Source: a virus. From it: DNA of 23,627 nt. Under the pieces are notes generated by a model. The model saw only the letters and a list, made by a program, of their open reading frames with translations. It did no database searches and had not been told where the DNA came from. Both the position numbers and the translations under genes were made by a program. Shown here piece after piece: positions 4,370-23,627 of this stretch (positions are counted from its first letter, which is position 1; each line of letters starts with the position of its first letter). The stretch lies in IMG/VR virus record IMGVR_UViG_3300023170_000174, positions 1-23,627 of that record. One strand, written 5' to 3'.

Positions 4370-4885
4370 TTATTCTTGCTCATTTTCTTGTTGTGCTAAT
4401 ATCTTGTCAGTAATATTGATTTGTTTTCTTTGGTAGTTCAATATTTTTTCTACTCGTTCTAAGAAATCTGTAAACAACATTTTACCCTTCATATAATTAC
4501 AATTAGCATGGGTAGGGTGCATATTACTTAGATTATTATTAATCCCTTGTGATTTTGGATAGATATGGTCTAAGTCATATGTGTCGTGTAAGATATCTAA
4601 TTTATCTCCACAGATGTAACAAAATGCTTTTTTAGAAGTATGTTCAATTAAATCTTGGGTAGACATTCCTTTTATATCGAATTCTCTTTGAACTTTTCTT
4701 CTAAATCTTGATTCAGGTTTTTGTCTATATTGTTTTGTTCTTTTCTTTTGTTTTTCTTTACCATCTTTTGAAAACCAATAATTTAGTGTTCCTTTACTAA
4801 TACCAAGTTCTTTATTAATTCTTCTATAAGAATAACCTTGTTCTCGCATTTTAAATGCTTGGTATTGTATTTCAGGATCAATCAT
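4370..4885 (-). CDS. HNH endonuclease with N-terminal helix-turn-helix
   Basis: This 171-aa protein has two parts. Residues 8-38 (KMREQGYSYRRINKELGISK, then TLNYWF) read as a helix-turn-helix for DNA targeting. A basic linker follows. Residues 89-134 form an HNH nuclease: Cys89-x2-Cys92, the catalytic DLDHIYP (Asp106-His107), Asn121 in LSNMHP, His126, and the second zinc pair region ending NCNYMKGK (Cys129). All key residues are present, so it should be active on double-stranded DNA. It overlaps the preceding HTH gene by 8 bases. HNH proteins beside terminase genes can assist packaging cuts. Others are free-standing homing endonucleases or restriction enzymes, and the HTH-HNH layout fits either. 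Confidence 0.85.
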   Translation of the reverse strand: MIDPEIQYQAFKMREQGYSYRRINKELGISKGTLNYWFSKDGKEKQKKRTKQYRQKPESRFRRKVQREFDIKGMSTQDLIEHTSKKAFCYICGDKLDILHDTYDLDHIYPKSQGINNNLSNMHPTHANCNYMKGKMLFTDFLERVEKILNYQRKQINITDKILAQQENEQE

Positions 4886-5174
4886 CTTCTAACTTTGCTT
4901 TCAGTCTTGAAGCTTCTGCAGCTAATTTTTTAGTGGCTCTTTCAAAATAGGTTTTAGCAGTAGATTCGGTAATCCCCATATTGTAAGCAATATCGCCAAA
5001 AGGTTTCATAGTCAATGCTCGTTCTATAAAAACTTGATATTCTTGATCTGATAGTTGCCTACCACCTATTACTCCAGTTAAGGTATATCGAAGTTGTTTG
5101 ATGATTCGTTGTTGTTCTACTTCGATTTCATCAATCAAGTCTTGATACCCTTTTGCTTCGTTTTCTATATTCAA
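4878..5174 (-). CDS. Sigma-70 region 4 / LuxR-like HTH protein, possible late transcription regulator
   Basis: This 98-aa protein starts with an acidic coiled-coil stretch (residues 1-32) followed by a helix-turn-helix of sigma region 4 or LuxR type at residues 41-84. The motifs LSDQEYQVFIERAL and DIAYNMGITESTAKTYF carry the typical IA..MGI(T/S)..T pattern. Small proteins of this shape include ArpU/RinA-type late activators, which lie just upstream of the terminase genes, as here. It is tied into the operon by an ATGA overlap with the methyltransferase upstream and an 8-base overlap with the HNH gene downstream. It might instead regulate the methyltransferase/nuclease unit, as controller proteins do. 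DNA binding is well supported; the target is inference. Confidence 0.6.
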   Translation of the reverse strand: MNIENEAKGYQDLIDEIEVEQQRIIKQLRYTLTGVIGGRQLSDQEYQVFIERALTMKPFGDIAYNMGITESTAKTYFERATKKLAAEASRLKAKLEDD

Positions 5175-6406
5175 AATATTTCTCCCTGAACTTTAACTGC
5201 TTTTAATCTTGCTTCTGCTATATCACAATATTCTTGCTCTCTTTCTATGCCTATATAATTAAACCCTTGTTGCTTACAAGCGATTAATGTTGTTCCACTA
5301 CCTGCAAAGGGTTCTAATACGATTCCTTCTTTGGGTGTTACCAGTCTTACTAAATATTCCATTAGTTTTATTGGTTTTACTGTTGGGTGGTAGTTTTTTC
5401 TTAATTGAGATTTTCTGTTATTATCTCGTAAAGCACCCACACCTGCAAGTTTACCTTCAAAATCATCTAACCCCATATTTCGTTCTGCTTTACTTGCTTT
5501 GGCACAATAAAAGAATCTTGCTGCTGTTCCACCATTATCTCCAGTTATTTTAGGGTTTCTTTTTCCTATTCCACCAATTCCAAACATAGAATTTCCAGAA
5601 GTTATTTTACTTTTTTTCAAATTTCCTGCTTGTTTTGTTTCAGGAAATATCTCTAATACTTCTTCACTTCCATCGTGGATTATGTTTGCAGGGAATCTTC
5701 CTTGTGTTTTATCCCATTCTCCACCACCAAAGTTCTTTCCATATACTTTATTTTTGTCATTAGGTATATATTCTTTTTTTTCTTTATTAGTTCCTGTCCC
5801 AACTCTACACTCATCTATGTTTATTCCACCTGTGCCATGTGTTAAGACATTTTCTGCTACTGATGTGTTAAATGGTTTTCTTGCCATTACAATAGGTTCA
5901 TGTGCAGGTTTTAGTGCAGTTCCCCAACCTTCCCATTCTGAATTGCCTTTGGTTATTTCACCTTCTCTTGGCTCTCCAAATGCACCTGCACCTATCGTTG
6001 TTCTTTCTTCTGCAACTCTAACACCTTTTTGTGAATGAATTTTTTTTCCAACAACTTCTCTTTCGTTTCCTTGTAGTTTATCTACTGCTTTTCCAATATT
6101 ATGTGATTTTGGAAAGCCACTACCATATAACCACCCTAACATATCTCTTATTTCAAATCCAGCATCTTCTATATTGACTGCCATTCTATGATAAGTTCTA
6201 CTACCTGCAAATGATAATATATGCCCACCTGGTTTTAGGACACGATATACTTCTTTCCATAATTCTACTTGTGGAACATCATAATCCCAAGATTTGCCCA
6301 TAAAGGAAAGTCCATAAGGTGGGTCAGTAACTACACTATCAAAATAGTTATCTTCAAAGTCTTTTAGGACTTCTAAGCTATCTCCACAGATGATTTTATT
6401 TTTCAT
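5171..6406 (-). CDS. DNA methyltransferase, beta class (N6-adenine or N4-cytosine)
   Basis: This 411-aa enzyme transfers a methyl group from S-adenosylmethionine to an exocyclic amino group in DNA. The catalytic motif IV TDPPYG is at residues 27-32 and the cofactor motif I EPFAGSGTT is near the C-terminus (FAGSG at 367-371), an order that defines the beta class. HPTVKPIKLMEYLVRLVTP precedes motif I, as is usual. The long middle part (about 35-330) includes the target recognition region and ends with FFYCAKASKAERN. It appears complete. It heads an operon with a candidate promoter 50 bases upstream. ATG at 6406 has only a loose AACAGGG upstream. A role in protecting phage DNA from restriction is likely; a partner nuclease downstream is possible. 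Confidence 0.9.
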   Translation of the reverse strand: MKNKIICGDSLEVLKDFEDNYFDSVVTDPPYGLSFMGKSWDYDVPQVELWKEVYRVLKPGGHILSFAGSRTYHRMAVNIEDAGFEIRDMLGWLYGSGFPKSHNIGKAVDKLQGNEREVVGKKIHSQKGVRVAEERTTIGAGAFGEPREGEITKGNSEWEGWGTALKPAHEPIVMARKPFNTSVAENVLTHGTGGINIDECRVGTGTNKEKKEYIPNDKNKVYGKNFGGGEWDKTQGRFPANIIHDGSEEVLEIFPETKQAGNLKKSKITSGNSMFGIGGIGKRNPKITGDNGGTAARFFYCAKASKAERNMGLDDFEGKLAGVGALRDNNRKSQLRKNYHPTVKPIKLMEYLVRLVTPKEGIVLEPFAGSGTTLIACKQQGFNYIGIEREQEYCDIAEARLKAVKVQGEIF

Positions 6407-8041: not shown

Positions 8042-8674
8042 TTATTTCTTTTTTTCCTGAAGTTTTAATAATAGTTTAAAAATAGATAATCCTTGATTCA
8101 AGTCTTTTAATGTTAATTTCTTTTCTTCATACATCGTTACATCTTTGCTTAGCTTTAAAATAATAGCACCATGAATCTTAATGTTAGGATTATATTCTTG
8201 CCAAAGTTGATGATAAGCTCCTAACTGGATTTCATATTCTTGATATATATCATTGGAAGTTTTGAAATCGACTAAATAGTTTTTGTTGTTGATTTTTGCA
8301 ATAGCATCGAATGTTCCACCGAATTGATATTTCTCGGATACTAAACTCAATTCAGTAGCTATAAATTTAGGTTTATATTTTCTATGCCAGGCACAGAAAC
8401 TGTTATAAGCAATTCGTGCTTGGATTTGTTCATTGGCAGTAAATTCTGATTGATCCACAGGTTTATTAGTAATATATGCTTCAATTAATATGTGGGCTAA
8501 AGTTCCTATTCTACCTGCTATTTGCAATTCAACATAAGGGTCTTGTCCTGACATTGCTAATTTGGTATACCAAGCAATTAATGCTTGTTTATTCCAACCT
8601 AATTGATTTCCTATAATGGTGGTTACCGACCTTAATCGTTTTCCACTTTTGTTTTTATATTTTACTAATGGCAT
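8042..8674 (-). CDS. PD-(D/E)XK exonuclease, RecB/Cas4-like
   Basis: The 210-aa product carries the ordered motifs of RecB-type nucleases: His61 in GTLAH, Glu108 in the following helix region, Asp123 in GGTFDA, Asp136-x-Lys138 in LVDFKTS, and Gln150/Tyr154 in QLGAYHQLW. These residues form the metal-binding active site and QhxxY motif of single-domain exonucleases. Such phage enzymes process DNA ends for recombination or replication, often with an SSB or annealing protein, and an SSB-like gene lies two kb upstream in the same operon. The start is supported by AAAGGAG. The protein looks complete. Confidence 0.85.
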   Translation of the reverse strand: MPLVKYKNKSGKRLRSVTTIIGNQLGWNKQALIAWYTKLAMSGQDPYVELQIAGRIGTLAHILIEAYITNKPVDQSEFTANEQIQARIAYNSFCAWHRKYKPKFIATELSLVSEKYQFGGTFDAIAKINNKNYLVDFKTSNDIYQEYEIQLGAYHQLWQEYNPNIKIHGAIILKLSKDVTMYEEKKLTLKDLNQGLSIFKLLLKLQEKKK

Positions 8675-8692: not shown

Positions 8693-8863
8693 TTAATCTT
8701 CTTTTATCTCAAAAGTAATATTTCCTTTAACTTGTAGATCACAATGAATGACTACTTTGTTATCTTCTACTTTTATGGTTTTAGATATCTTTTTAAGATT
8801 TTCTTTTAACTTGTCATTTTCTTCTTTTAAGATACCTAATAGTCTTTTTTCATTTTCAGTCAT
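8693..8863 (-). CDS. Small coiled-coil plus beta protein (56 aa)
   Basis: A 56-codon gene whose ATG overlaps the TGA of the NinG-like gene (ATGA). The first 30 residues (NEKRLLGILKEENDKLKENL) are a good coiled-coil, and the rest (VVIHCDLQVKGNITFEIKED) reads as a beta hairpin. It is followed after 18 bases by the RecB-like nuclease gene. Translational coupling and clean coding character support it. The function is unknown; a partner of either neighbouring nuclease is possible. Confidence 0.6.
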   Translation of the reverse strand: MTENEKRLLGILKEENDKLKENLKKISKTIKVEDNKVVIHCDLQVKGNITFEIKED

Positions 8864-9285
8864 GGTGTTTCCTCCAGTCCATCATTATAATCTGCTGCTT
8901 GTCTAAATTGTAAGTAGGTTATTTTTTCTTCTACTTCTTTTCTAAATTCTTTGGATAAAAGATATTTTTTTTCACCTGCTTTTAAAGAGGTATTTCTTCT
9001 TTGTTGTAAAGCATCAAATTCTTTTTGTCCTAAACGATTTAAAACAAATTCTCTATGCTCTTGTGGATTGCCACCTAAATAGCTGTGGCAGCCATAGCAA
9101 AGAGCCATTGTGTTTTTGGGGCAATACCTGACACTCCAATTACCTCTTGACCAAAAATGTGAACAGTGTAAAGCAGAAGTAGGTGGTGTATATTTTTTAT
9201 TACATCTTTGACAAGTCCAATTATCTCTTGTTCGGATATATTTACTCCAAACAACATCGCTTGGAAACAGTTTAAGTTTAGGCAT
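8860..9285 (-). CDS. HNH-fold recombination protein, NinG/Rap-like
   Basis: The start is set at ATG 9285, where AAGGAG lies 10 bases upstream; the frame is open further but would run into the methyltransferase gene. The 141-aa product shows Cys25-x2-Cys28, a LHCSHFWSRG segment (His40, His43), Asn58, and Cys63-x2-Cys66-His67, followed by YLGGNPQEHREFVLNRLG. This arrangement, with GN.xEyRxgLxxriG after the zinc site, resembles lambda NinG (Rap), a structure-specific endonuclease that acts on recombination intermediates. It ends in an ATGA overlap with the coiled-coil gene. A generic HNH role is certain enough; the NinG relation is from memory of the motif. Confidence 0.65.
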   Translation of the reverse strand: MPKLKLFPSDVVWSKYIRTRDNWTCQRCNKKYTPPTSALHCSHFWSRGNWSVRYCPKNTMALCYGCHSYLGGNPQEHREFVLNRLGQKEFDALQQRRNTSLKAGEKKYLLSKEFRKEVEEKITYLQFRQAADYNDGLEETP

Positions 9286-9286
9286 T

Positions 9287-9952
9287 TTAATTGTTCTCCT
9301 TGAATAATTGTAACAAAGCATTAAGCTGTGCTTGTCCCATTTCATTAAATAATTCTTCAAAAAGTTCAGATGGTATTTGACTTTTTTCGTATGATCCTTT
9401 TAATCCTTGTGTTCCAGTTCTACTACCTCTTGGTGCAGGTTGGTGATGACATTCTCTATTTCCATTTTTACACATTTGCTTTGGTATCCATTTGAGATTT
9501 GTCCAAATATCAGTAGGTTTCATTCTCATATCGCCATAAGAACAATAGGTAATAGTTTTTCTTGGTAAATCTTTAACTACATCTAATTTTCTTAATTTAC
9601 CTCTTGGATTTTCTATAAACCAAAACATTGGTTTTATTTCTTTAATGATATCAATAGTTCTTTGAACAATATCAACACCTAATAATGCTTCTTTAGTTTT
9701 TGGTGTATGGTTTGGATACCAATGACGACCTATTGATGCTACTGAAAAATAAGTACATGGAGGACTTGCCCAAATAACATTTGGTTTACCACCAAGACTA
9801 TCAATGGCTTTATCAATATCAAAATCAAAAATATCACATACCTGGTCTATTTTATCGAATGGATAAATATCAGTAGTATAAGTTCTAAAGCCACGATTTT
9901 CTGCAACTTTTGTAAAACTGCGACTACCTGCAAACAATTCTAAAGTTTTCAT
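9287..9952 (-). CDS. DNA cytosine-5 methyltransferase-like protein
   Basis: This 221-aa protein has the landmarks of C5 methyltransferases: cofactor motif LELFAGSRSF (residues 4-13), the Cys66 catalytic loop WASPPCTYFS, and the ENPRG motif (Glu114-Asn115) that stacks with the target base. It lacks the large target recognition domain of restriction-linked enzymes and is about two thirds their size, a form often seen in phages. The C-terminal half has a Cys/His patch (MCKNGNRECHH) that may bind zinc. The ribosome binding site is strong (ACAAAGGAGA). The likely role is to modify phage DNA against host restriction or to mark it. Activity is likely but not certain. Confidence 0.8.
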   Translation of the reverse strand: MKTLELFAGSRSFTKVAENRGFRTYTTDIYPFDKIDQVCDIFDFDIDKAIDSLGGKPNVIWASPPCTYFSVASIGRHWYPNHTPKTKEALLGVDIVQRTIDIIKEIKPMFWFIENPRGKLRKLDVVKDLPRKTITYCSYGDMRMKPTDIWTNLKWIPKQMCKNGNRECHHQPAPRGSRTGTQGLKGSYEKSQIPSELFEELFNEMGQAQLNALLQLFKENN

Positions 9953-10037: not shown

Positions 10038-10136
10038 TTATACCACCAACAAGACTATTAGTGATAAGAATGCAATCATTAAAATTAATAATAGAATTAC
10101 TAAAATCAAAATTGCAAATATATTTCCCAATTCCAT
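10038..10136 (-). CDS. 32-aa single-span membrane peptide
   Basis: The ATG overlaps the stop of the SSB-like gene as TAATG. The product begins MELGNIFAILILVILLLILM and is almost wholly hydrophobic, a clear single membrane span with essentially no soluble part. A longer frame in another register covers the same bases but has no such coherent character. Phage peptides of this type include small holin or toxin-like pieces and inhibitors of host membrane proteins. No specific role can be given. Confidence 0.6.
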   Translation of the reverse strand: MELGNIFAILILVILLLILMIAFLSLIVLLVV

Positions 10137-10738
10137 TAGAATGGTAATTCGTCGTTATCGTATTGAACTGTATCTTGCATATCACGACTTATTGGCTCAT
10201 TGTCTTTGGTAGCCAAAGGTAATGTTGCAGGATTTTCACAAGCTTCTAACCAACCTTCTACTCGTTTATAAGCATTGACAAATTCTTCAGTAGTCCATAC
10301 TTGGTTATTAGCAATATACAATTTGACCACATTATTGAAAATCATACCATTTCTTGCAGGATTAGCAACACTCGGTGTTGATTGCTGTGATACTGCTTTT
10401 ACTGGATTAGCACCATTCTTAACAGGTGCTTTGACATTTTCATATTGTGGTTGCTCAAACAACTCTACTTTCCAATAGTTTCTTAATTCACCTTCATTGG
10501 AAGTAAATTCTTCCCAAGATAAATTAAAAGTAGAATTAGGCTCAAGAGTATTGAGTTTTTTATGCAAACTATCTGTTGCATCTAAAGAATAGACTGATCC
10601 ATCTTGTATGACTTCATATTTAAAGTTGTTCCAAGATTTACCATTATATTCTTTCTTTTCAAAGACACCACCTGAATTAAGAGTTAAAGTAATTTCTTGT
10701 CCAGGATTCTCTTTAAGGGTTTTTAAGTTAATGAACAT
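10136..10738 (-). CDS. Single-stranded DNA-binding-like protein
   Basis: This 200-aa product has a beta-rich N-terminal part (about residues 1-100, with KSWNNFKYEVIQDGSVYSLD and FNLSWEEFTSN) that fits an OB-like fold. It has a Pro/Ser/Asn-rich linker (about 105-128), a short helical segment, and an acidic tip ending DNDELPF. The acidic tail with a terminal Pro-Phe is the hallmark of SSB proteins, where it docks partner enzymes. The gene has a strong ribosome binding site (ACAAAGGAGA) and lies in the DNA-metabolism operon near nuclease genes. It probably protects single-stranded DNA in replication or recombination. The fold assignment is by eye; the tail is the strongest evidence. Confidence 0.65.
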   Translation of the reverse strand: MFINLKTLKENPGQEITLTLNSGGVFEKKEYNGKSWNNFKYEVIQDGSVYSLDATDSLHKKLNTLEPNSTFNLSWEEFTSNEGELRNYWKVELFEQPQYENVKAPVKNGANPVKAVSQQSTPSVANPARNGMIFNNVVKLYIANNQVWTTEEFVNAYKRVEGWLEACENPATLPLATKDNEPISRDMQDTVQYDNDELPF

Positions 10739-11442: not shown

Positions 11443-11467
11443 TTAATCTCCTTTGTTGTTATAAGAG

Positions 11468-11495
11468 TTTAAAATCAAACTTTCCAACTTGTCAA
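11468..11495 (-). promoter_or_regulatory. Candidate leftward early promoter
   Basis: A consensus -35 hexamer TTGACA (11495-11490, minus strand) is followed after 16 bases by TTTAAA (11473-11468), giving a leader of roughly 20 bases before the 78-aa gene. TTGGAA with TATAAC 18 bases on (near 11459-11464) is an alternative but leaves almost no leader. The -35 is good and the -10 is weak. Confidence 0.4.
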
Positions 11496-11496
11496 G

Positions 11497-11562
11497 TTTC
11501 TTTTTCTTCTTCTTATTCTTTTTATTCTTCTTCTTCTTTATCTTCTTCTTTTTCTTTTTCTT
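11497..11562. repeat. Polypyrimidine tract beside the origin-like region
   Basis: Sixty-six bases of C and T on the plus strand are interrupted by only three A and no G, built from irregular TTC and TTTTTC units. It is purine-only on the leftward transcript template's complement. Such tracts may form triplex or unwound DNA, affect nucleoid protein binding, or act as a UP-like element for the leftward promoter. It does not make a plausible protein. Confidence 0.55.
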
Positions 11563-11575
11563 ACAGGGTACCCCC

Positions 11576-11604
11576 TACCCTATTTATCCACATTCAATAG
11601 GGTA
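11576..11604. repeat. 9-bp inverted repeat enclosing a DnaA box
   Basis: TACCCTATT (11576-11584) and AATAGGGTA (11596-11604) are perfect inverted copies around an 11-base loop that holds almost all of the first DnaA box. A partial third copy, AGGGTAC, occurs at 11565-11571. It may be an initiator or repressor site or a cruciform. Confidence 0.6.
11584..11592 (+). promoter_or_regulatory. DnaA box 1
   Basis: TTATCCACA is an exact match to the consensus DnaA box. It lies in the intergenic region and inside the loop of the inverted repeat. Confidence 0.65.
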
Positions 11605-11605
11605 C

Positions 11606-11614
11606 TTATCCACA
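11606..11614 (+). promoter_or_regulatory. DnaA box 2
   Basis: A second exact TTATCCACA in the same orientation, 22 bases from the first, so both face the same side of the helix. It borders the AT-rich segment. Confidence 0.65.
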
Positions 11615-11658
11615 AAGTTATTAACAATTTTGCTTAAAAAAATATTTTTCTAAATATG

Positions 11659-11687
11659 TTGACTTTAATTGTATTATCATTTATTTT
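11659..11687 (+). promoter_or_regulatory. Candidate promoter for the plus-strand gene
   Basis: TTGACT (11659-11664) and TATTTT (11682-11687) are spaced by 17 bases and would start a transcript about 25 bases before the ATG at 11720. The -35 matches 5 of 6 consensus bases; the -10 is weaker. Confidence 0.4.
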
Positions 11688-11719
11688 ATTTTTATAGTTA
11701 ACAAAACAAAGGAAAAAAA

Positions 11720-11962: not shown

Positions 11963-11988
11963 AACCCCCTAAAATAAGGGGGTTTTTT
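11963..11988 (+). terminator. Terminator between the plus-strand gene and the tail operon
   Basis: An 8-bp stem AACCCCCT / AGGGGGTT with loop AAAATA is followed by a run of six T on the plus strand. The minus-strand copy also has a short T-containing tail, so it can end both the rightward gene and the leftward tail operon that stops at 12029. Confidence 0.85.
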
Positions 11989-15637: not shown

Positions 15638-17203
15638 TTATAGTCCTAATTTTTCTGCTCTCCTAATAGCAGGAATAATATGATCCACTACTGTTTCATC
15701 AACAAGAGGTGCAGATATGTAAATATTAATGTTTCTATCATTAGCTCCTGGTGGGGCAGGTAATGGGGTTACATCAATTCGTTCCATACCACTTGCATTA
15801 TCTCCTACCATTACTCCATTTCCAATTGGTAATGTTGTTCTACCTTTAGCAATAAAGCTACCACCAGTTGCAAAAGAGGAGAATAATTGATCTGTTACTT
15901 TACCTACCATACCACCTGCACCTGCTGCTAAAGCTAAATTTAATGGAAAAGGAACTGCTTGCATAATTTTTGTAATTAAAGATGCAGTTGACTTAGCTAT
16001 TTCTGCTTTTATTACTGAAACACCTGCTTGTTTTGCAGATTGACCTTGTAAAATTGCCATTTGAAGATTTTGTTGTATTCTTTCTTTATGTTCTTGTTCA
16101 CGAAGTTTTTTTCTTTGTTTAATATTTTCTTCAATAAAATTAGTGTAAGTATCTTCCATTTCAATTAGTGGCTCTAAATCTAAATCACCAAGAATGTCAA
16201 TTCCATCTTCTCCTGATATTTCTGATTGTATTGTACTTCTTATTGAATCTATTGCATCTGTTAATTGAGGTCCAGTTGGTTGTGCATAAGTAAACATTAT
16301 TTCTTGTTCTTTACCAATAGATTTTAATGCATCGTCTACTTGTGATGGAAATCTTTTTATACCATCTATCATTCCATCAACAAAATTATCAACATATTCA
16401 ATTACACCTGGAATTGTTTGCAAAACATTAGATAAAAAATTTATAAAAGATACACCAGGTCCTTCTACAAATTCACCGAAAGCAATTTTGAGATTTTCCA
16501 TAGCAACATCTAATTGTGCAATCGTATCATTAGTATCTAAAGTTTCCTCTCCTAATTCTGCTACTTTTGATGCAGTAGATTCTAATGCTGCTTGAATAAA
16601 TGCTTGTTTTCTTTCATTTTCATCTAAATCTTTTACTGCTTTACCATTGGCTTGTGCAAATTTTTCATAAGCTAAATTGGTATCTAATACAATCCCCAAG
16701 TTATCCAACATAAGTTTAGATTGACGACCAATACCAGTTGTTAATGATTCAATACCAAATAAGGCATCTTGTCCAACTGCTTTTGCTAATCGTTGTGCAT
16801 TGTCAATTAACTCTGCAAAAGCTTCATCATTTTCAACGATACCAAGCAACATAGCATTATTAGCTTGTATCATTAGATCAACATCAGATACAGTTCCATT
16901 GGTGGCTTGTCTAAATTTATTTAAAGAATCTTCATTGAAACCAACTGATGATCCTAAATTTTTAAAAGCAATATTTAAAGAATCTGCTCTTGCTTTTAAT
17001 ATTAAAGACTCTTTTGAAAAATTAGCTATTGCTCTAACTGCAAAAGCACTAACAATAGTTTTACCTAAACCAATGAAACTTTGTTTTAATTTATCATTTT
17101 CTTTTTTGATATTCTTTTGACTATCAACAAATTTCTTTAGTCTTTGTTCGGCTTCTTTTATTTCTGCCTGGATATACAGCTTTATTTTTTTATCTACTGC
17201 CAT
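15638..17203 (-). CDS. Tape measure protein
   Basis: This 521-aa protein follows the chaperone pair and precedes the tail-tip genes, the standard place for the protein that sets tail length. It starts with a coiled-coil (IKEAEQRLKKFVDSQKNIKK) and has extended helical parts with Ala-rich stretches. It contains GQDALFGIESLTTGIGRQS, a segment common in this family, and a hydrophobic region near the C-terminus (LNLALAAGAGGMVGKV). It is short for the family: at about 1.5 angstrom per residue it predicts a tail near 80 nm, shorter than many siphovirus tails. No lytic domain is visible. Confidence 0.8.
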   Translation of the reverse strand: MAVDKKIKLYIQAEIKEAEQRLKKFVDSQKNIKKENDKLKQSFIGLGKTIVSAFAVRAIANFSKESLILKARADSLNIAFKNLGSSVGFNEDSLNKFRQATNGTVSDVDLMIQANNAMLLGIVENDEAFAELIDNAQRLAKAVGQDALFGIESLTTGIGRQSKLMLDNLGIVLDTNLAYEKFAQANGKAVKDLDENERKQAFIQAALESTASKVAELGEETLDTNDTIAQLDVAMENLKIAFGEFVEGPGVSFINFLSNVLQTIPGVIEYVDNFVDGMIDGIKRFPSQVDDALKSIGKEQEIMFTYAQPTGPQLTDAIDSIRSTIQSEISGEDGIDILGDLDLEPLIEMEDTYTNFIEENIKQRKKLREQEHKERIQQNLQMAILQGQSAKQAGVSVIKAEIAKSTASLITKIMQAVPFPLNLALAAGAGGMVGKVTDQLFSSFATGGSFIAKGRTTLPIGNGVMVGDNASGMERIDVTPLPAPPGANDRNINIYISAPLVDETVVDHIIPAIRRAEKLGL

Positions 17204-17597
17204 TCTTATTTACCTCATACTCCTTAATAGAGTTTAATTCATTATCTATAATCAATAAATTATCAATTAAAATTGCATCTGCTTCATACAGATTACTTGC
17301 AATCGGAATATTGAATTGTTTAATCAATTTATACTCCTTGATAACTTCCCCAATCCATTCTTCATAAAGACATCGTGGATCACAAAAAAGTGGTAAAATA
17401 AAATATAGGTTTCTTCCCATTGAAAATTTTGATTTTTCATATTTATCAAAAACCTTATCAATTTCATCTAACACTTCTTCCTGGTTGTTATATGTCCTTA
17501 CTTTATTGGTTATAGGACTTTGCCTTTTATAAGGAAACTCTTTGTCGAAGTGTGGATAGCCATAGTGACTAAACCACACATACGACGACAAAGCCAT
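17190..17597 (-). CDS. Tail assembly chaperone, second (GT/T-like) part
   Basis: This 135-aa frame lies between the first chaperone gene and the tape measure and starts in a TAATG overlap with the chaperone stop. It is in the -1 frame relative to that gene, and a run of seven A lies just before the stop, so it is best read as the T part of a G/GT programmed frameshift, giving a fusion of about 226 aa. A free start at ATG 17597 with AAAGG upstream is also possible. The sequence (YVWFSHYGYPHFDKEFPY; EEWIGEVIKEYKLIKQF) has no other recognisable domain. Such proteins recruit the tape measure and tube subunits during assembly. Confidence 0.6.
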   Translation of the reverse strand: MALSSYVWFSHYGYPHFDKEFPYKRQSPITNKVRTYNNQEEVLDEIDKVFDKYEKSKFSMGRNLYFILPLFCDPRCLYEEWIGEVIKEYKLIKQFNIPIASNLYEADAILIDNLLIIDNELNSIKEYEVNKNGSR

Positions 17598-20137: not shown

Positions 20138-21124
20138 TTATCTCCTTTTTAATTGGATAGTTTCTATTCCACCACCACTTGTGTGATCTAATCCTGATAC
20201 TTCTACTTCCCATTCATCATTGGCTACATATAATCCAGTAGAGAATCGTACATAGACTCCATGTCCAACAGGTTGGAATGATCCATCGATTACTTCGGCT
20301 TCTTGAACTTGATTAACTTTGAGTCCTGAATCATCACCAACAAAAGATTTATAAGTTACTGTTGATGTTGTTCCTGCACTAAAAGTACCCCCTGTTTCAA
20401 TAATGACTTTGATTCTATCATAAGACACTTGTGGATAACCATAAGTATCAACAATTGCACCTGTGGTAGTTGCATCAACTGCTACTTCTTTAACGATTTT
20501 ATCTCTACCATCTTCATCTTGGTCTAATGATATAACTCCTTTACGAATCATATCTAATAGTCCAGTATTGGTTTCAGGGTTGTATGCTTGATCTTGTAAC
20601 CTTAAACCATTGGCTTCATCATAAGGTAATATTGCCATCGAAGCAGCCATTAAAGCAGTAGCTCTAACAATTACTTCAGGATAGTCCCTACCTAAACTAT
20701 CCCCAGTTCCGACACCCTTGTTCTTGTAGATGGGTTTGTTGATATAAGAACGAACAAAGTCAGAACTTCGCTTGATAAACTCATTAAAGAGTGTTTGATT
20801 ATCCCTTCCTGCAGTCATTACAACATCAAAATTAGGATTGTTGTTAGAAGTGGGTCTGAAGTAAACAACATCAGCAGCTTCATCAAAGTAGTATTTCCCA
20901 TCTGCATTTATACTTGGAATGTCAGCTACTTCGGTTTGTTCGATGTCATTTTCGTAAAGCATTGTGAATTTTCCTACACTACCTGCTTTAAAGATTTCAG
21001 TTCCACCACTTCCTGAATGACTTACCCAGTTTGTGATAGTTCGTTTCCTGTCGTAATCGAAGACAAATGGGGCTACCAGTTGTATATCTTCGATGGTGCA
21101 ATATGTATCAAGATATGTACTCAT
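20138..21124 (-). CDS. Head-tail connector protein
   Basis: The 328-aa product contains a helical core (about residues 110-205: LFNEFIKRSSDFVRSYINKP; EVIVRATALMAASMAILPYD; GLLDMIRKGVISLDQ) that resembles the four-helix fold of SPP1 gp15 / HK97 gp6 adaptors, which join portal to tail. It is flanked by beta-rich N- and C-terminal parts (FKAGSVGKFTMLYEND; GHGVYVRFSTGLYVANDEW). It is longer than simple adaptors, and the extra C-terminal beta domain may be a neck decoration. Its place ahead of the tail completion genes agrees with the call. Confidence 0.6.
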   Translation of the reverse strand: MSTYLDTYCTIEDIQLVAPFVFDYDRKRTITNWVSHSGSGGTEIFKAGSVGKFTMLYENDIEQTEVADIPSINADGKYYFDEAADVVYFRPTSNNNPNFDVVMTAGRDNQTLFNEFIKRSSDFVRSYINKPIYKNKGVGTGDSLGRDYPEVIVRATALMAASMAILPYDEANGLRLQDQAYNPETNTGLLDMIRKGVISLDQDEDGRDKIVKEVAVDATTTGAIVDTYGYPQVSYDRIKVIIETGGTFSAGTTSTVTYKSFVGDDSGLKVNQVQEAEVIDGSFQPVGHGVYVRFSTGLYVANDEWEVEVSGLDHTSGGGIETIQLKRR

Positions 21125-22779: not shown

Positions 22780-23030
22780 TATTCAGCATCTCTAATTGCT
22801 ATATAGTCTGCTAATTCTGATTCACACTCAGTAAGTTGTGCTTGTAAATTAGCTTTATGTGCTTCACATTGTGATATAGCATCATCTACTGATTTTACAT
22901 CAGTATAATCCACTACTTCTACATCATTTCCTGATGCATCTTGCATCGTTCTTGTATGCTTGATCTCTACCATTTTAGGTGAATCAACTTGTACTTGTTC
23001 TTGTACTTTTTCTGCGATTACTTTAGCCAT
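22779..23030 (-). CDS. Coiled-coil protein next to the fibre (83 aa)
   Basis: The product begins with a polar stretch (KVIAEKVQEQVQVDSPKMVE), has a short beta hairpin with an ASGNDVEVVDY turn, and ends in a helical coiled-coil (ISQCEAHKANLQAQLTECES) with two cysteines at like spacing. It overlaps the fibre gene by 8 bases. It may be a trimeric accessory or chaperone of the fibre. No family is recognised. Confidence 0.55.
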   Translation of the reverse strand: MAKVIAEKVQEQVQVDSPKMVEIKHTRTMQDASGNDVEVVDYTDVKSVDDAISQCEAHKANLQAQLTECESELADYIAIRDAE

Positions 23031-23610
23031 TTAACCTCTCCTTAAGTTCGTTAATTTGTTGTTGTTGTTCTTTTATTGCCTCTATAAGTAGAGGTACAAT
23101 TTTTTCATATTTAACTGCTTTATATCCAGTATCTCTTGTAGTAACTACTTCAGGTAGGACTTCTTCTATTTCTTGTGCTATAACACCTACATCGTGTCCT
23201 TCATTACCATGTATAGTTTTCTTTTCTTCTTTAGTTAATTCTTTCCAATCAAATTCTACACCATTAATCTGTAACACTTTATCTAATGCACTATCTAATG
23301 GTTTGATGTTTTCTTTTAATCTTTTGTCAGAAGTTGAATAAGCTACTACATCATTACTACAATCTAATCTTCCTGATGTACCACTTGGTGTTACATTAAT
23401 ACCTACTGAACCACCAAATTCAGCACTATTAGCACTTCTATCAAATTTTAAATGTGCAAAACTTCCATCCCAAAATTCAAAATCTTCACTTCCACCACCT
23501 GTTAGTCCAAATCTCCAAAGTTCTGTACCACTTTCATTTGCTAATTGTATTTGACTTCTACCAGTTGATGAACTTCTTTCAATTTTTAGATATTGAGATA
23601 CACCACTCAT
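23023..23610 (-). CDS. Tail fibre/spike protein with S74 intramolecular chaperone
   Basis: This 195-aa protein has a Gly/Ser-rich beta N-terminal part (about residues 5-90) and a C-terminal S74 (intramolecular chaperone auto-processing) domain from about 92: YSTSDKRLKENIKPL with Ser94 and Lys99 as the expected dyad, then VEFDWKEL, HDVGVIAQEIEEVLPEVV, and a final coiled-coil ending EQQQQINELKERLNG. In relatives the domain trimerises the fibre and cuts itself off next to the Ser. The gene lies at the right edge and is complete. It is short, so it is probably a fibre tip or a trimeric adaptor rather than a whole fibre. Confidence 0.85.
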   Translation of the reverse strand: MSGVSQYLKIERSSSTGRSQIQLANESGTELWRFGLTGGGSEDFEFWDGSFAHLKFDRSANSAEFGGSVGINVTPSGTSGRLDCSNDVVAYSTSDKRLKENIKPLDSALDKVLQINGVEFDWKELTKEEKKTIHGNEGHDVGVIAQEIEEVLPEVVTTRDTGYKAVKYEKIVPLLIEAIKEQQQQINELKERLNG

Positions 23611-23627
23611 TTTTATATCTAATTTTG

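Follow-up and report, generated by a model that had tools for sequence, protein, structure and literature searches.

How DNA synthesis starts in small uncultured phages that have no detectable replication enzymes is mostly unknown, and the question is raised by a tailed phage in IMG/VR whose record, 23,627 bases long and classified as linear, was analysed over its whole length (the window). The original prediction held that the gap between two divergent genes in this record is origin-like, and that the phage uses the DnaA and replisome of its host. The sequence of the gap, its counterparts in related phages and the genes that accompany it are examined here with respect to both claims.

The phage is marked as tailed by its terminase, tape measure and tail genes. 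Its head/tail-fibre region is cut by the record ends (23023-23627 and 1-409), and gene-content comparison indicates that the capsid region of two relatives, G003 and G004, is missing from the window. These relatives, of 30.4 kb and 30.0 kb, appear near-complete by gene content, although a search for terminal repeats found none; the record appears to cover some four fifths of a ~30-kb genome. Relatives by TerL are abundant in IMG/VR, while annotated phages gave no nucleotide, portal or SSB match and a TerL identity of at most ~39%, and the family thus appears to be uncultured. The host is probably a marine bacterium; a TerL search of genome contigs gave no match, and one Lachnospiraceae MAG which matched the cassette pattern was treated as chance. 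As nearly all genes lie on one strand and cumulative GC skew is near-monotonic along the window, skew is uninformative on the position of an origin. A small sigma-70 region-4-like protein (4878-5174), possibly a late-gene regulator, is conserved across the family. The early region encodes N6/N4-type and C5-type DNA methyltransferases and an HNH endonuclease (5171-6406, 9287-9952, 4370-4885), the methyltransferase position being one of variable cargo among relatives.

Paired DnaA boxes within a conserved three-part unit

The features named in the original prediction are all present (Table 1). The gap at 11443-11719 is the only divergent one in the chosen gene set, and it holds two exact tandem DnaA boxes, TTATCCACA, 22 bp apart at 11584 and 11606. 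The 9-bp inverted repeat noted at one box is perfect (TACCCTATT at 11576-11584 and AATAGGGTA at 11596-11604) and flanks box 1, which sits between the arms and has one base in common with the left one. The pyrimidine tract (~11496-11563) and the AT-rich stretch (11627-11719) were likewise found. In first-order Markov simulations, exact boxes are expected by chance 0.36 times per window and 0.0023 times in the gap, and two exact boxes close together arose in 0 runs. A further exact TTATCCACA at 20430-20438 (-) lies inside a structural gene and was set aside as probably a coding coincidence. Three relatives (G001, G003 and G004) carry a lone exact TTATCCACA in a different tail gene, the homologue of 17190-17597; the sequence of the window there, at 17551, is CTATCCACA.

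Table 1. Positions of the candidate origin elements and associated genes in the window
Feature	Position	Strand	Remarks
DnaA box 1, TTATCCACA	11584..11592	+	exact; exact at same place in almost all gap-reaching relatives
DnaA box 2, TTATCCACA	11606..11614	+	exact; 22 bp start to start from box 1
Degenerate DnaA box 3, TTATTAACA	11618..11626	+	two mismatched positions; 12 bp from box 2, start to start
Half-site AATAGGGTA	11596..11604	+	flanked by boxes 1 and 2; forms the right arm of the 9-bp inverted repeat
GC repeat type A, dyad AGGGTA-CCCCC-TACCCT	11565..11581		candidate initiator site; left of box 1
T-rich hexamer array	11496..11563	+	candidate DNA unwinding element; TTNNNC in relatives, degenerate in window
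AT-rich stretch right of boxes	11627..11719		rightward promoter-like site at 11659-11687
Leftward early promoter-like site, TTGACA-18-TAAACT	11466..11495	-	
Winged-helix protein, 119 aa	6564..6923	-	candidate origin-binding initiator (replisome-organizer-like)
PD-(D/E)XK exonuclease	8042..8674	-	
NinG/Rap-type junction endonuclease	8860..9360	-	
SSB-like protein	10136..10738	-	OB-fold N-terminal part; acidic C-terminal tip DNDELPF
Small gene, 70 aa	11720..11932	+	accessory; absent or unrelated in relatives
Bidirectional terminator	11963..11984		between small gene and converging tail operon

Conservation of the boxes in related phages was the refutation test attached to the original prediction, and they passed it. 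A search with the SSB-like protein of the window alone gave no matches, and an SSB alignment yielded 48 loci, of which 44 were examined for boxes. In 33 of the 44, TTATCCACA occurs within 2.6 kb upstream of the SSB gene, usually in tandem and at the same position; three loci are fully covered yet lack TTATCCACA (lineage C), and in the other eight the contigs end within ~1.5 kb. Some of the loci are near-duplicates, and statistics were therefore computed on 26 distinct sequences. In the first TerL set, all exact boxes fall in the same gap. The second box of the relatives lies 12 bp away, 21-22 bp away (as in L098, L100, L102 and L133) or is convergent, and by alignment TTATTAACA at 11618 is the counterpart of that second box, which reads TTATCCACA, TTATACACA or TTATTAACA. 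As the boxes keep their position, come in pairs and belong to a unit conserved across the family, the assignment of the gap as a replication origin is well supported at the level of sequence.

The unit is larger than originally noted, being laid out as a TTNNNC hexamer array of ~10 units, GC-rich repeats and DnaA boxes, in that order. What had been taken as a plain pyrimidine tract is the regular hexamer array: among the 26 distinct relatives, lag identity is 0.62 at 6 and 0.60 at 12, against 0.38-0.45 at lags outside this period, the hexamer composition and TTNNNC register being read in 27 sequences. The average duplex stability is lowest at ~-60, within the tract, and at ~+100, the difference between positions being shallow; conservation suggests that the hexamer array is the side that would unwind. 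The AT-rich stretch to the right of the boxes is not retained as such in L098, L100, L102, L110 and L119, where the rightward gene and its promoter are gone and the boxes abut the terminator of the tail operon. Relatives repeat TTGTCA (+ strand) at the place of the leftward promoter-like site, and L135/G016 carries the complete unit at the same site in reverse orientation. Since the right flank is missing in five loci and the unit can be inverted, the hexamers, repeats and boxes evidently move as one block, and this pattern indicates that the unit is not simply the parts of one promoter.

The GC-rich repeats come in different types. Type A (ACCCCC core) is found in the window and in L099, L101 and L103-L105, and type B (AACCCTT) in all other box-bearing loci, most cleanly as 11-bp tandems in L133. 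The repeats of the window are a dyad plus a half-site, not clean tandem iterons, with three AGGGTA half-sites clustering at 11565 (+), 11576 (-) and 11599 (+); the homologous 12-mer, GTACCCCCTACT, is in tandem in L099, L101 and L105 and inverted in L103. In two closely related loci, L101 (G003) and L103 (G001), the type A GC block ~35 bp left of box 1 has opposite orientations and looks inverted in place, and type B units likewise flip between CCCTT and AAGGG.

Exact boxes are missing in one lineage only, lineage C (L138, L140, L141, L178 and L181), which retains the hexamer array with differing repeats (AACTGT...); L181 also retains TTATACACA. As the remainder of the unit persists here where exact boxes are gone, DnaA looks like a helper in what can be read from these sequences.

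Replication genes and the link between repeats and a winged-helix protein

The claim that the phage relies on the host replisome is supported. No DnaB_C match occurs in the 20 records searched, and searches of nine records for DNA_pol_A and IstB/DnaC-type proteins were likewise negative; several of the searched records are near-complete (28–33 kb). The reliance appears not to be on DnaA alone, as the phage encodes SSB-like and winged-helix proteins, to which the exact-box-free lineage C may be added. The SSB-like protein of the relatives ends in DDLPF or DELPF, as in SSB. The winged-helix protein is conserved in relatives and has a predicted winged-helix fold (pLDDT 87). Several of its BFVD fold matches (E 1e-5 to 1e-2) are named as replisome organizers, one as a DnaD-like replication protein and one as a replication initiator, the top three matches being nameless, and its PDB fold matches are weak. 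By sequence, family libraries gave no match above cut-off, and the PDB gave nothing meaningful and no detectable homology to a solved Rep protein. The gene is 5 kb away from the origin, which would be atypical for a rep gene.

An indication of what this protein may do comes from its linkage to the repeats, as type A repeats are found only alongside the type A winged-helix protein. G001 and G003 carry type A repeats, yet share 90-100% identity with type B phages in most core genes, including those for SSB, NinG and exonuclease, all three situated in the interval that separates the origin from the winged-helix gene. Their winged-helix protein has at most 66% identity to any type B one and 71% to that of the window, and among the core genes common to both groups it alone departs from type B towards the window; variable genes (methyltransferase, tail proteins) of these two phages also differ. 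Placed on trees, repeat type changes twice for the winged-helix protein, the minimum for three types, against four times for SSB, exonuclease and the sigma-like protein and three times for TerL, and type A forms a clade with support of 98 in the winged-helix tree. In AU tests, type A monophyly was rejected outright only for exonuclease; the slower genes do not formally rule it out, SSB giving p 0.34 and TerL and the sigma-like gene borderline values of 0.066 and 0.055. The linkage fits a protein that would read the repeats, and it is strong, though it amounts to one exchange (mosaic) event and one separate lineage and is not repeated. In the predicted structures, the recognition helix hardly differs between types A and B, and the discriminating residues are placed in other helices and a loop.

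A proposed origin mechanism and its alternatives

The stretch 11465-11626 is probably a phage replication origin of the iteron-plus-DnaA type, served by a phage initiator and host DnaA. The phage winged-helix protein would bind the GC-rich repeats and host DnaA the adjoining tandem boxes, and the two may jointly open the neighbouring T-rich hexamer array, where the host replicative helicase and then the rest of the host replisome would be loaded, while phage SSB would coat the exposed strand. We infer this order of events, and likewise the direction of replication, from sequence, the basis being the three-part unit, the failure to find helicase or polymerase genes, the two encoded proteins (SSB-like and winged-helix), and the agreement of repeat type with the winged-helix tree.

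The layout is like that of the RK2 oriV, in which boxes are followed by initiator repeats and an AT-rich region with T-rich repeats, and in which a winged-helix initiator acts with host DnaA and without a plasmid helicase, as proposed here (PMC4081077, PMC4980987). Assisted by DnaA, TrfA contacts the iterons and also one of the two strands of the AT-rich 13-mers (PMC4081077, PMC4980987). RK2 differs in having four boxes, iterons, 13-mers and a TrfA-type Rep with two winged-helix domains, whereas the phages have between one and three boxes, repeats that are 11-12 bp long or form dyads, hexamers and a single small winged-helix protein encoded 5 kb away. In ori2 of Vibrio cholerae, RctB uses 11-/12-mer head-to-tail sites one helical turn apart, accompanied by a DnaA box and by AT-rich DNA that unwinds (PMC6090056), and the 11-bp tandem repeats next to the boxes in type B relatives such as L133 are similar. 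However, RctB is a large multi-domain protein with GATC in its sites and cell-cycle control, none of which is seen in the phage. Measured against iteron origins in general (RK2, F, P1 and ori2), repeats beside a T-rich array are found in lineages A, B and C and DnaA boxes are found as well, exact ones being absent in lineage C; an initiator with two winged-helix domains, as iteron-type initiators have, is not found, a single such domain being predicted in the 119 aa.

Among phage systems, the lambda origin is alike in that a phage initiator (O) acts on repeats beside an AT-rich region with repeated motifs. The lambda origin lies inside gene O, and lambda supplies the helicase loader P; neither an origin inside the initiator gene nor a helicase loader is seen here. 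The AT-rich region of lambda contains repeats (PMC4081077). Predicted structures named as replisome organizers and DnaD-like proteins match the fold of the candidate initiator, but most named matches are of 200-490 aa against ~119 aa, and the domains beyond the winged helix, such as an extra C-terminal domain, are missing, while no helicase loader or helicase was matched in the records searched. No report of such an origin type in phages was found in the open-access literature.

It is unlikely that the gap is a chromosome-like origin of the BUS style, acted on by host DnaA alone, with the GC repeats and winged-helix protein serving gene control. In many relatives the boxes stand in tandem in the same orientation, separated by 3 bp and with the left one matching better, as described for the Bacillus subtilis BUS (PMC8287927), boxes 2 and 3 of the window fall within the same spacing (<=3 bp), and no helicase gene was found in the records searched. 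Against this, no above-chance DnaA-trio run lies within 16 bp beyond the boxes, the runs to their right averaging 3.1 versus 3.0 in shuffled sequences (26 sequences), and a trio-like register is instead found on the far side, in the pyrimidine tract. Trios in that tract were considered and rejected: the in-register run is 18 versus 6.7 shuffled in the window, but only 10 of 27 sequences reach p <0.05, and the side is wrong. The B. subtilis origin is inactivated by box reversal (PMC6669920), and this published requirement for polarity, together with the misplaced register, makes the BUS-type reading less likely. An origin driven by DnaA alone also sits poorly with type C phages that lack exact boxes and with a repeat type that tracks the winged-helix protein.

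An improbable alternative is a transcription switch, in which an early regulator has its operators in the GC repeats, host DnaA tunes the early promoter through the boxes, and replication starts elsewhere or by recombination. The gap is divergent with promoter-like sites on both strands, the winged-helix and sigma-like proteins could be regulators, and the exonuclease and NinG suggest a recombination pathway. However, the repeats are upstream of the leftward -35 site at a distance of ~70-100 bp, several relatives do without the rightward gene, and L135 has the unit in reverse orientation; nor is it obvious what a hexamer array would do in a switch, and the fold matches of the winged-helix protein bear replication names. 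That the boxes are a decoy which titrates DnaA and starves the host oriC is very improbable; high-affinity boxes are retained in nearly all relatives, but each genome has only one to three, in a single place, and a decoy requires no repeats, hexamer array or fixed spacing.

A more specific model is offered tentatively, as a possibility short of an even chance: the core may be a minimal single winged-helix initiator and a hexamer unwinding element, with the specificities of repeats and initiator changing together and with host-DnaA docking an optional module, retained by most lineages and lost in one. If true, the family would be a natural series on the gain and loss of DnaA dependence by replicons. 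On the iteron-plus-DnaA reading, the unit would be a compact, modular origin common to the family and closer to plasmid than to usual phage origins, with a likely initiator named. Because natural swaps exist in repeat type (A, B and C), in the presence of boxes and in the orientation of the unit, the family allows direct tests of initiator specificity and of DnaA dependence, and the conserved TTNNNC array could reveal recognition of single-stranded DNA by the initiator.

As a separate observation on gene content, phages of the lineage that lacks exact boxes (L138/L179, G011) carry extra early genes that by eye resemble those for dUTPase, deoxycytidylate deaminase and thymidylate synthase.
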